Shown here piece by piece: positions 52,485 through 60,905 of a stretch of 64,000 nucleotides of DNA (the stretch's first letter is position 1; every line of letters starts with the position of its first letter). The translations under genes and the position numbers were made by a program. Where the stretch lies: assembly GCF_900111115.1 (NCBI RefSeq), contig NZ_FOGD01000003.1:62001-126000 (forward strand), given 5' to 3'. The notes under the pieces are model-generated. The model did not search any database, was not told where the DNA came from, and saw only the letters and a list, made by a program, of their open reading frames with translations. Origin of the DNA: Giesbergeria anulus (lineage in GTDB: Bacteria; Pseudomonadota; Gammaproteobacteria; Burkholderiales; Burkholderiaceae_C).

Positions 52485-52565
52485 CTGCCCGTCTGGCCCG
52501 TTAGGCCGGGTGGTCTTGTGGGCAGGGCTGTGCTTTAACCGGGGCTGCGCCCTATACTTGGGCCT

Positions 52566-52664
52566 GCTCCGGGGTGTGCGTTGCACTGAGATGGGGGTGG
52601 CCAAGCCAATGGCGCATCCGCGAACCCGACGAACTTGATCCGGTTCATGCCGGCGGAAGAAGAG
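52566..52664 (+). promoter_or_regulatory. TPP riboswitch (THI element) upstream of thiC
   Basis: The conserved thi-box bases are present in order: CTGAGA at 52586-52591, ACCCGA at 52624-52629, GAACTTGATC at 52631-52640, and CGGTTCATGCCGGCGG at 52641-52656. This is the pyrimidine- and pyrophosphate-binding pattern of TPP aptamers. It lies about 90 bases before the thiC ATG and should repress thiC when thiamine pyrophosphate is abundant. Confidence 0.93.
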
Positions 52665-52751
52665 CCAATGCCCCCCTGCCCGCCTTGGCGCAAGGGCCAG
52701 GGCAACGATCTACACCGGAGCGCAACCCCCGCCACAGCCTCCGGAGATTGA

Positions 52752-58640: not shown

Positions 58641-59090
58641 TCAAGCAGCCACCAAGTCAAAACTGGTGGTGATGTCAGCCGTTTTGCCTAGCATGATGCT
58701 GGCCGAGCAGTATTTGTCGTGACTCATGGCAATGGCGCGCTCTACGGCACCGGGCGGGATGTCTTTGCCGGTCACGGTAAAGTGCATGTGGATTTTGGTA
58801 AACACCTTGGGGTCGGTATCGGCGCGCTCGGTGGTCAGTTTGACGCTGCAAGCGCGTACATCGTGGCGGCCACGCTTCAAAATCAGCACCACGTCGTAGG
58901 CGGTGCAGCCACCGGTGCCTGCCAGCACGGTTTCCATTGGGCGTGGTGCTAGGTTCTGGCCGCCGTTTTCGGGCCGGGCGGCATCGGGGGCACCGTCCAT
59001 CACCAGCGTGTGGCCACTGCCGGTTTCGGCGATAAAACCCATGCCTGAGCGTGTGCCCGCAGCGCCCGTCCAGCTCACTGTGCATTCCAT
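58641..59090 (-). CDS. OsmC family peroxiredoxin-like protein
   Basis: A 149-residue OsmC/Ohr-fold protein. The two redox cysteines are in GTGGCTAYDVV (near residue 62) and HDKYCSASIML (near 128). The fold is a swapped dimer that reduces organic hydroperoxides in known members; here the activity is inferred. AAGGAA lies upstream of the ATG at 59090. First gene of an osmC-yggS pair, divergent from the small RNA and ilvA. Confidence 0.9.
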   Translation of the reverse strand: MECTVSWTGAAGTRSGMGFIAETGSGHTLVMDGAPDAARPENGGQNLAPRPMETVLAGTGGCTAYDVVLILKRGRHDVRACSVKLTTERADTDPKVFTKIHMHFTVTGKDIPPGAVERAIAMSHDKYCSASIMLGKTADITTSFDLVAA

Positions 59091-59172
59091 GATGGTTTCC
59101 TTGATGGTTGTTTTTTAACCACAGCATTGTCGTGGATTTTGTTGCTGTGCAACATAAGATCACACCGTGGCT

Positions 59173-59178
59173 TATAAT
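59173..59178 (+). promoter_or_regulatory. -10 box of the candidate small RNA
   Basis: A perfect TATAAT. No good -35 is seen at 17 bases (CAACAT), so the promoter assignment rests on the -10 element and on the terminator at the right distance downstream. Confidence 0.5.
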
Positions 59179-59182
59179 TCAA

Positions 59183-59292
59183 ATCACGCAATGCTTACTT
59201 TGGTATTAACCCGAAGCATTGCACCATTTGTCTCCTCCATCTCCTCAAAGGATGGATTCAGCCCCAAGCCTCACGGCTTGGGGCTTTTTTTT
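59183..59292 (+). ncRNA. candidate anti-Shine-Dalgarno small RNA (betaproteobacterial toxic sRNA-like)
   Basis: An intergenic transcript of about 105-110 bases is predicted between a TATAAT box and a strong terminator. Stem 1: GCAATGCTT (59188-59196) with AAGCATTGC (59214-59222), perfect nine pairs, 17-base loop. Then a single-stranded pyrimidine tract TCTCCTCCATCTCCTC (59231-59246), which contains two CTCC-type anti-SD elements. Stem 2: TCCATC / GATGGA (59236-59241, 59251-59256) with the second TCCTC in its loop. Stem 3 is the terminator. The arrangement recalls the Rfam betaproteobacteria toxic small RNA, known for a conserved anti-SD sequence; I could not run a covariance search. Confidence 0.65.
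59260..59292 (+). terminator. Rho-independent terminator of the small RNA
   Basis: AGCCCCAAGCC / GGCTTGGGGCT, 11 perfect pairs around a TCAC loop, followed by eight T (59285-59292). Strong on the plus strand. It lies before ilvA and after no plus-strand protein gene, so it must end a non-coding transcript. Confidence 0.92.
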
Positions 59293-59336
59293 GCTTTGGG
59301 CCCTATGATGTTCGCCATATTCTCTGCTGTCCAATC

Positions 59337-60905
59337 ATGACTGAGCCTCTTTCTCCCCTTGATTATCTAAAAAAAATCCTCACGGCCCGCGTCTATGACG
59401 TTGCCATTGAGACCGACTTGCAAGTGGCGCGTACCCTGAGCCAGCGCTTGGGCAACAAAGTCTTGCTCAAACGCGAAGACCAGCAGCCGGTGTTCAGCTT
59501 CAAGCTGCGCGGTGCTTACAACAAGATGGCGCACCTGACGCCCGGTCAGTTGGAGCGTGGCGTGATTTGCGCCTCAGCGGGCAACCACGCCCAAGGCGTA
59601 GCCATGAGCGCGCGCAAGCTGGGGGCGCGGGCGGTCATTGTTATGCCCACCACCACGCCACAGCTCAAAATTGACGCCGTGCGGGCTTTGGGCGGCGAGG
59701 TGGTGCTGGCAGGTGAGAGCTATTCCGATGCTTACGCCCATTCGGTCAAGCTAGAGCAAGAGCAGGGCCTGACTTTTGTCCATCCCTTTGATGACCCTGA
59801 CGTCATTGCCGGGCAGGGCACTGTTGCCATGGAAATTTTGCGCCAGCTGCAAAAGCTAGGCAGCAACCGGCTCGATGCGGTGTTTGTCGCCATTGGCGGC
59901 GGTGGCTTGATTGCCGGTGTGTCTAACTACATCAAAGCCATCCGCCCTGAGATCAAGGTGATTGGCGTACAAATGAGGGATTCTGACGCCATGGTGCAAT
60001 CGGTGCTCAAGGGGGAGCGCGTTACGCTGCCCGATGTGGGCCTGTTTTCTGATGGCACGGCGGTCAAGTTGGTGGGTGAAGAAACTTTCCGCATTGCGCA
60101 AGGGTTGGTGGACGAGTTCATCACCGTCGATACTGATGCCGTGTGTGCGGCCATCAAAGATGTTTTTGTCGATACGCGCTGCATTGTGGAGCCAGCGGGT
60201 GCGCTGGCGGTGGCCGCCATCAAGCAGTATGTGACCACGCACCACACCGAAGGCGAAACCTACGCCGCCATTTTGTGTGGTGCCAATATGAACTTTGACC
60301 GCCTGCGCTTTGTGGCCGAGCGTGCTGAGGTGGGCGAAGAGCGCGAGGCCCTGCTGGCTGTGACCATCCCCGAAGAGCGTGGCAGTTTTAGGCGCTTTTG
60401 CGAGATCATTGGCGGTTTGCCGGGTGGCCCGCGCAACGTCACTGAGTTCAACTACCGCATCAGTGATGCCGCACGCGCCCATGTTTTTGTCGGCCTGACC
60501 ACGCACGGCAAGGGCGAATCAGCGCAATTGGCCCAAGCCTTTAGTCAGCACGGCTTTAACGCCCTCGACTTGACGCACGACGATCTGGCTAAAGAGCACC
60601 TGCGCCATCTGGTGGGCGGCCTGTCGAACTTGGCGCAAGATGAGCGCTTGCTGCGCTTTGTCTTTCCAGAGCGCCCCGGTGCCTTGCTCAAGTTTTTGAG
60701 CCTGATGCAGCCCAGCTGGAATATCAGCTTGTTTCACTACCGCAACCAAGGGGCCGACTATGGCCGTATTTTGGTTGGTATTCAGGTGCCGCCTGAAGAT
60801 GGCGCGGCTTTTGCTGATTTTCTGGCAACCTTGGGCTACCCTTACGTGGAAGAGACGCAAAATCCGGCTTATCGCCTGTTTTTGCAGGCACCCGCCACCC
60901 ACTAA
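59337..60905 (+). CDS. ilvA: threonine ammonia-lyase, biosynthetic (IlvA)
   Basis: A 522-residue PLP enzyme converting threonine to 2-oxobutanoate, the first step to isoleucine. PLP lysine K56 in PVFSFKLRGAYNK, CASAGNHAQGVAMSA, IGGGGLIAGVSNYIKAIRP, then two ACT-like regulatory domains in the C-terminal 190 residues (VTIPEERGSFRRFCEIIG and FPERPGALLKFLSLM), the full-length form inhibited by isoleucine. No clear ribosome-binding site precedes the ATG. Confidence 0.95.
   Translation: MTEPLSPLDYLKKILTARVYDVAIETDLQVARTLSQRLGNKVLLKREDQQPVFSFKLRGAYNKMAHLTPGQLERGVICASAGNHAQGVAMSARKLGARAVIVMPTTTPQLKIDAVRALGGEVVLAGESYSDAYAHSVKLEQEQGLTFVHPFDDPDVIAGQGTVAMEILRQLQKLGSNRLDAVFVAIGGGGLIAGVSNYIKAIRPEIKVIGVQMRDSDAMVQSVLKGERVTLPDVGLFSDGTAVKLVGEETFRIAQGLVDEFITVDTDAVCAAIKDVFVDTRCIVEPAGALAVAAIKQYVTTHHTEGETYAAILCGANMNFDRLRFVAERAEVGEEREALLAVTIPEERGSFRRFCEIIGGLPGGPRNVTEFNYRISDAARAHVFVGLTTHGKGESAQLAQAFSQHGFNALDLTHDDLAKEHLRHLVGGLSNLAQDERLLRFVFPERPGALLKFLSLMQPSWNISLFHYRNQGADYGRILVGIQVPPEDGAAFADFLATLGYPYVEETQNPAYRLFLQAPATH

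Follow-up and report, generated by a model that had tools for sequence, protein, structure and literature searches.

What kind of RNA is encoded between the divergent osmC-like gene and the ilvA-like gene of this Giesbergeria anulus genome, and what controls it? We addressed both questions in a window of 64,000 nucleotides, the whole stretch of DNA analysed, to which all coordinates below refer. The sRNA gene is compact, and it and its neighbours comprise the following features.

58641..59090, minus strand: osmC-like gene, divergent (Pfam OsmC, PF02566)
59140..59154, no strand assigned: perfect palindrome TGTTGC-TGT-GCAACA at the -35 position, a probable PhaR (PhbF-type) operator
59173..59178, plus strand: -10 box TATAAT, 18 nt 3' of the palindrome, read from the sequence
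59184..59292, plus strand: predicted primary transcript of about 110 nt, its start placed from the -10 box and its end at the terminator
59188..59222, plus strand: 5' hairpin with a nine-pair stem (predicted fold)
59229..59291, plus strand: RF02278 core of 63 nt, with a CU-rich 5' end, a hairpin and the terminator (cmscan)
59229..59238, plus strand: seed 1, UGUCUCCUCC, complementary to GGAGGAGACA ribosome-binding sites (read from the sequence)
59243..59249, plus strand: seed 2, CCUC in the loop of hairpin 2, whose stem is 59236-59242/59250-59256 (predicted fold)
59260..59292, plus strand: intrinsic terminator with 11 pairs, a 4-nt loop and eight T (sequence and terminator scan)
59337..60905, plus strand: ilvA-like threonine dehydratase gene, downstream (Pfam PALP and Thr_dehydrat_C)

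A cmscan search against Rfam 15 identified RF02278, 'Betaproteobacteria toxic sRNA', at 59229-59291 on the plus strand, with 69.4 bits (gathering score 50), E = 6e-12 and a match covering model positions 1-64 of 64. The earlier note had proposed an anti-Shine-Dalgarno RNA of the betaproteobacterial toxic class or a new member of it, and this end-to-end match supports its class reading; the sRNA is a fresh member of the already known RF02278 family. It has the architecture of that family, with UGUCUCCUCC at the 5' end, followed by a hairpin and then by an intrinsic terminator. The CU-rich 5' end, the conservation of which had been raised as a check, recurs together with hairpin 2 in most of the order loci displayed, as does the start of seed 1.

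We identified a single RF02278 match at E <= 0.001 in the G. anulus genome itself. Counting this genome, matches at E <= 0.001 were found in 32/40 relatives and in 192/300 genomes across the order, of which 27 and 116, respectively, reach the cut-off, and none was found in 14 control genomes. No Rfam family other than RF02278 and TPP reached its gathering score within the window (the TPP riboswitch lies at 52560-52678, plus strand, 59.1 bits), and a plasmid search with the RNA of the window gave no match. For comparative analysis we oriented 119 RF02278 loci: 30 from relatives (of which three score under the Rfam cut-off), 29 additional ones from the order, and 60 further loci taken nearly by rank among the above-cut-off matches listed, not all of them, with two near contig ends omitted. 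We additionally observed that four genomes of family f8 carry several matches each (nine in G030, eight in G188 and in G079, seven in G273), some copies in this family being arranged in tandem about 200-380 bp apart. In families f15, f44 and f50, many of the RF02278 loci without the PhaR-type site described below have a different, A+T-rich promoter resembling ATATTAGANAAT.

The earlier note's observation of an sRNA holds as a whole, with three imprecisions. The perfect TATAAT is present at 59173-59178, as is the nine-pair stem, formed by the arms GCAATGCTT/AAGCATTGC at 59188-59196/59214-59222, and the 11-pair terminator with eight T was likewise correctly read; its stem-loop spans 59260-59285 and its T run 59285-59292, such that the first T doubles as the last base of the stem. 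The pyrimidine tract does contain CTCCTCC (59232-59238) and CTCCTC (59241-59246), but it is not wholly unpaired as had been described, since 59236-59238 are paired in the stem of hairpin 2 in the predicted fold. Hairpin 2 itself is predicted as proposed, with a loop that reads CCUCAAA rather than presenting TCCTC. The statement that the region has no open frame is not strictly correct, as a 57-codon GTG frame (59167-59340, plus strand) spans the sRNA; we judge it a chance frame, which could not be read from the predicted transcript because its start precedes the predicted -10 box.

The predicted fold of 128 nt has an energy of -46.7 kcal/mol (z = -6.4), and none of 200 shuffles was equally low. 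A conserved sequence for the 5' hairpin was considered and dropped: that of the nine-pair stem is common only to L001 and L002 and, less exactly, to L004, and fold support elsewhere is modest. A hairpin is nonetheless often predicted at this place in other loci of the genus, where the 48 nt upstream of the core have a mean fold z of -1.4 in 22 loci compared to -0.3 for 66 control segments, and z values below -1 occur in 14/22 and 17/66, respectively. The 5' hairpin is probably removed by processing, as reported for the Bordetella pertussis RNA S17 and indicated for the Burkholderia cenocepacia RNA NcS27.

A promoter scan of the window did not report the TATAAT at 59173-59178, because there is no near-consensus -35 hexamer at the correct spacing; that position is occupied by the perfect palindrome. 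The earlier note, right as to the -10 box, had overlooked this operator-like element. Positions 59140-59152 are an exact fit to TG-N-TGC-N3-GCAA, the sequence reported as protected in the footprint of PhbF, the PhaR homologue that regulates PHB in Herbaspirillum seropedicae (PMC3206438). Within 200 nt upstream, the strict form TGYTGC-N3-GCARCA was found in 26/119 sRNA loci, compared to 1/1532 control windows drawn from the same loci. It is present in 20/22 sRNA loci of the genus and in 5/8 of the remaining family, the genus misses being L030, which is a phaP 3' UTR element, and L008, which is one letter off.

We also checked 13 strict sites elsewhere in the G. anulus genome, 12 of which lie within an open frame according to a rough gene caller, the phaP site being counted in-frame only through an over-extended start from that caller. 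Two of the other strict palindromes lie close to genes, one preceding a GNAT acetyltransferase gene by 45 bp (L084, position 1542), and one about 110 bp upstream of zapD, within another frame by the same caller (L087, position 1588).

The phasin gene, phaP, is a classic PhaR target. The G. anulus genome encodes PhaR (PF07879 match, E = 4e-30) and has TGCTGCGTCGCAACA roughly 100 nt 5' of the phaP ATG. In the genus, 23/24 loci have the strict site ahead of the phasin domain, often in two copies about 58 bp apart (the one miss, L114, is a cut locus), and a wider form of the site occurs in 24/30 phasin loci of other genera. The motif TG-N-TGC-N3-GCAA additionally occurs about 90 nt before the phaR domain in 15 of the 18 genus phaR loci scanned. 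No site was found upstream in the phaR promoter of the G. anulus genome (L053), where autoregulation would be expected to place one, and of 39 phaR loci from other genera only 5 carry one in the 200 nt preceding the domain; PhaR autoregulation is reported not to be universal (PMC9049629).

Outside the genus, the published motif alone was found in 27/76 sRNA loci of phaR-bearing genomes and in 0/21 of phaR-less genomes (p = 6e-4), and by family a widened motif was found in 12/15 phaR-bearing and in 0/5 phaR-less families (p = 0.004), both p-values being optimistic because the loci are related. Control windows outside the genus contained the published motif in 6/1772 cases. The widened motif, whose consensus was extended after viewing the promoters, occurs outside the genus in 49/76 loci with phaR and 0/21 without, and in 7/1772 controls. 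A weight matrix built from the phasin sites alone, applied outside the genus at the 5% level, recovered 47/76 loci with phaR and 1/21 without. A further reservation is that upstream regions are poorer in G+C in phaR-less (0.40) than in phaR-bearing genomes (0.49). The only phaR-less genome with the site, G007, is a member of the genus and 84% complete. Not all phaR-bearing lineages have the site at the sRNA: it was not found in families f49, f31 and f5, in 2/3 loci of f44, or at the sRNA copies on a B. cenocepacia and a P. phymatum megaplasmid, and it is present in part of f32 (6/12 loci), f8 (5/12) and f21 (4/8).

From these sequence patterns we consider it likely that this gene encodes a stand-alone RF02278 sRNA under the control of PhaR, a repressor that senses PHB granules. 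The alternative that fares best, albeit an unlikely one, is that a different regulator, one that happens to co-occur with PhaR, binds the palindrome of this RF02278 anti-SD sRNA. It is the site and not the protein that is seen, the phaR promoter of the G. anulus genome and most phaR loci of other genera are without it, and a strict site also precedes the acetyltransferase gene. Against this stand the PhbF footprint on such a site in a related betaproteobacterium (PMC3206438), the presence of the site upstream of phaP in most loci order-wide and of phaR in most of the genus, and its absence at the sRNA in the 21 phaR-less loci outside the genus.

A second alternative, that the palindrome serves the divergent osmC-like gene while the sRNA is transcribed from a simple growth-phase promoter, appears improbable. 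On the far side of the palindrome, osmC starts at a distance of about 50 bp, and an osmC-like gene is a conserved neighbour, being found in divergent orientation within 1.5 kb upstream in 74/119 loci from 16 families; most of these loci have it near the sRNA, whereas in f29, f49, f50 and part of f4 it is about 1 kb off. However, among the 27 own-family loci measured (L030, L146 and L161 excluded), the palindrome stands anywhere from 49 to 114 nt from the osmC start, whereas its end is separated from the best -10 box by 9-11 nt (19 loci) or by 18-20 nt (8 loci). These gaps take two values, one helical turn apart, while the osmC distance is variable, which ties the site to transcription of the sRNA. 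The site moreover lies 35-37 nt before the UGUCUCC core in f18 and part of f32, and the sRNA apparently starts directly at the core. In addition, the site at S17-type promoters overlaps the -35 element assigned from a mapped start (mapping in PMC11722255). On spacing, we therefore judge osmC unlikely as the owner of the palindrome.

Still less probable is a toxin RNA of the toxin-antitoxin kind, an idea that draws on the name of the family, which reportedly derives from a cloning screen and refers to clone toxicity in E. coli. Among the neighbours looked for, only the osmC-like gene is conserved across families, an antitoxin lying outside that search; S17 is reported not to have impaired exponential growth of E. 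coli BL21 (PMC11722255), and NcS27 acts on metabolism (PMC10987360). Finally, although the sRNA ends about 45 nt before ilvA on the same strand, we rejected a cis-acting leader or attenuator of ilvA, the least probable reading of all, on account of the strong terminator ahead of ilvA, the full RF02278 match, and the restriction of the ilvA neighbour to family f1 (28/119 loci, all f1) while the sRNA is found order-wide. The link to the two neighbours, which had been called unknown, is clearer in this respect: because osmC spans 16 families and ilvA adjoins only in f1, the osmC-linked copy looks ancestral, and the ilvA neighbour looks incidental.

PhaR leaves DNA once PHB granules form. For the preferred reading, an RF02278 sRNA under PhaR, we infer PhaR binding, processing, a part for Hfq and the targets as follows. 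In the absence of PHB, PhaR at 59140-59154 would block RNA polymerase; under carbon excess, granules would titrate PhaR, and the sRNA would be made alongside phasin. Cleavage of the RNA of about 110 nt just 5' of UGUCUCC, of the kind reported for S17 and indicated for NcS27, would leave a stable form of about 63 nt. Seed 1, UGUCUCCUCC, and the loop CCUC would then base-pair with ribosome-binding sites in mRNAs for uptake and catabolism, probably assisted by Hfq, such that these mRNAs would be translated less and a carbon-storing cell would take up less additional carbon. An RF02278-like element in the phaP 3' UTR may be a second contributor to the same output.

Evidence for such an element comes from the relatives, in which eleven weak RF02278 matches sit just 3' of phasin genes. 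GTCTCCT or CTCCTCC occurs within 420 nt past the phaP stop in 17/24 loci of the genus, the G. anulus genome included, and [TC]GTCTCC within 300 nt in 8/30 loci of other genera. The predicted folds of the phaP 3' elements of the genus contain a hairpin and a terminator. In 25 such elements, arm 1 of the hairpin makes 146/150 standard pairs, compared to 115 +/- 3 for arm-1 shuffles (0/500 as high), and 17 different arm combinations are represented; as arm pairing beats the shuffles across these combinations, the helix persists through changes of its bases. RF02278 was matched at E <= 0.1 in 8/14 phasin loci tested, with 28-36 bits; because these scores lie under the cut-off of 50, we do not assign the phaP 3' elements to RF02278.

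In the G. anulus genome itself, a TGTCTCC-hairpin-terminator element lies 3' of phaP on contig C18 (L094, L088), and this element (L094) has no RF02278 match at E <= 0.1. It is possibly a second anti-SD RNA, and we infer that phaP 3' elements are released as RNA. The ribosome-binding site of phaP in this genome is GGAGAC, complementary to the sRNA seed.

We searched the G. anulus genome for candidate targets of the sRNA. Perfect eight-base targets, GGAGGAGA-N3-13-ATG, occur at 7 genome sites, two of them antisense to the sRNA itself, and one of the other five opens a long frame. The shorter pattern GGAGACA-N2-12-ATG occurs at 77 sites, with no excess over the permuted patterns GGAGAAC (49) and GGAGCAA (81) in this genome. 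We fetched 30 GGAGACA loci and examined 27 (L293, L299 and L314 were omitted because they overlapped others or were already covered); annotation was obtained for 20 frames of at least 80 codons. These include six periplasmic binding proteins, a branched-chain amino-acid permease, benzoate dioxygenase, phenol hydroxylase, two catechol-dioxygenase-like proteins, an aldehyde dehydrogenase, an AMP-binding protein of the acyl-CoA ligase type and a GAF/sigma-54 activator, among others. When the same filter was applied to 60 control loci, 30 frames remained, none of them encoding a periplasmic binding protein. Functions in transport or catabolism, as sorted by the author after viewing the matches, were assigned to 13/20 GGAGACA frames and to 9/30 controls (9/18 GGAGAAC, 0/12 GGAGCAA). 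An uptake and catabolism target class is suggestive only, and is to be read as a lead because many control frames are metabolic too.

More broadly, and more tentatively, with the chances close to even, in much of the Burkholderiales the 'toxic' RF02278 RNAs might be the riboregulatory arm of PHB sensing. PhaR would stand over the osmC-side anti-SD sRNA and, via the phasin promoter, over the anti-SD-type element in the phaP 3' UTR; granules would brake the translation of carbon-uptake and aromatic-catabolism genes; and PhaR would be the repressor postulated for S17-type promoters. The PhaR site offers a concrete candidate regulator for RF02278 RNAs, the control of which the authors of the NcS and S17 studies left open. 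If PhaR-controlled, the RNA makes physiological sense as a report of stored carbon, and a hidden brake of this kind on substrate uptake would be relevant to the engineering of bioplastic producers.

Comparable RNAs have been described in other betaproteobacteria. The 'double-hairpin RNAs' NcS27, NcS03, NcS05 and NcS62 of B. cenocepacia belong to RF02278 (PMC5688073) and resemble the G. anulus sRNA in family, CU-rich anti-SD stretches and two hairpins; unlike them, the G. anulus sRNA has a promoter with a full PhaR-type palindrome and a 5' hairpin of other sequence. NcS27 is reported to be 92 nt long with a processing site (PMC5688073; PMC10987360). The three B. cenocepacia RNAs measured rose 8.0-, 6.9- and 4.3-fold in glucose medium (PMC5688073), a 4- to 8-fold rise as expected for release by PHB, and also rose in biofilm (PMC5688073; PMC10987360). 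Overexpression of NcS27, according to a review, slowed growth on several carbon and amino-acid sources and affected catabolic and transport genes (PMC10987360). The regulator of accumulation is called unknown by the authors, who mention an upstream motif shared by three homologues and shown in a supplementary figure (PMC5688073); this motif may be the PhaR-type site.

The 5' end of S17 from B. pertussis matches RF02278 RNAs, and RNase E converts its long form of 190 nt into a short one of 67 nt (PMC11722255). S17 is reported to repress a sigma-54 activator through pairing with the ribosome-binding site (PMC11722255), and one candidate target of the G. anulus sRNA is likewise a sigma-54 activator. 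Its levels follow Bvg, and its authors argue for an unnamed repressor; its promoter reads TTGCAT, 17 nt, TACTAT (PMC11722255). A scan of named genomes for this geometry identified nine stretches, including Bordetella hinzii, two other Bordetella and two Achromobacter, B. pertussis not being among them. In 9/9 the -35 region reads TTGCAT(C/T)GCACAA, though the pattern fixed only TTGCAT. These named relatives carry a site variant, TTGTGC-N3-GCAA, at the S17-type promoter, and the same variant is found upstream of phasin genes in other families.

The RNAs Hsnc059, 063, 086 and 107 of H. seropedicae are also RF02278 members, 93-115 nt long with 24-47 nt before the core (PMC7011215), and these toxic sRNAs occur in the species whose PhbF site was footprinted. 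In the main texts, PhbF is not mentioned in the H. seropedicae sRNA paper (PMC7011215), nor PhaR in the S17 paper (PMC11722255), nor PHB in the 2017 NcS paper (PMC5688073); in the limited body of literature covered, we found no publication linking RF02278 to PhaR. Finally, MmgR of Sinorhizobium meliloti is reported to rise when phaR is depleted and to tune PHB and phasins (PMC12542648; PMC9049629). It differs in being alphaproteobacterial and nitrogen-responsive and, as far as Rfam tells, in being another RNA, and it is an alphaproteobacterial precedent for a PhaR-linked sRNA.
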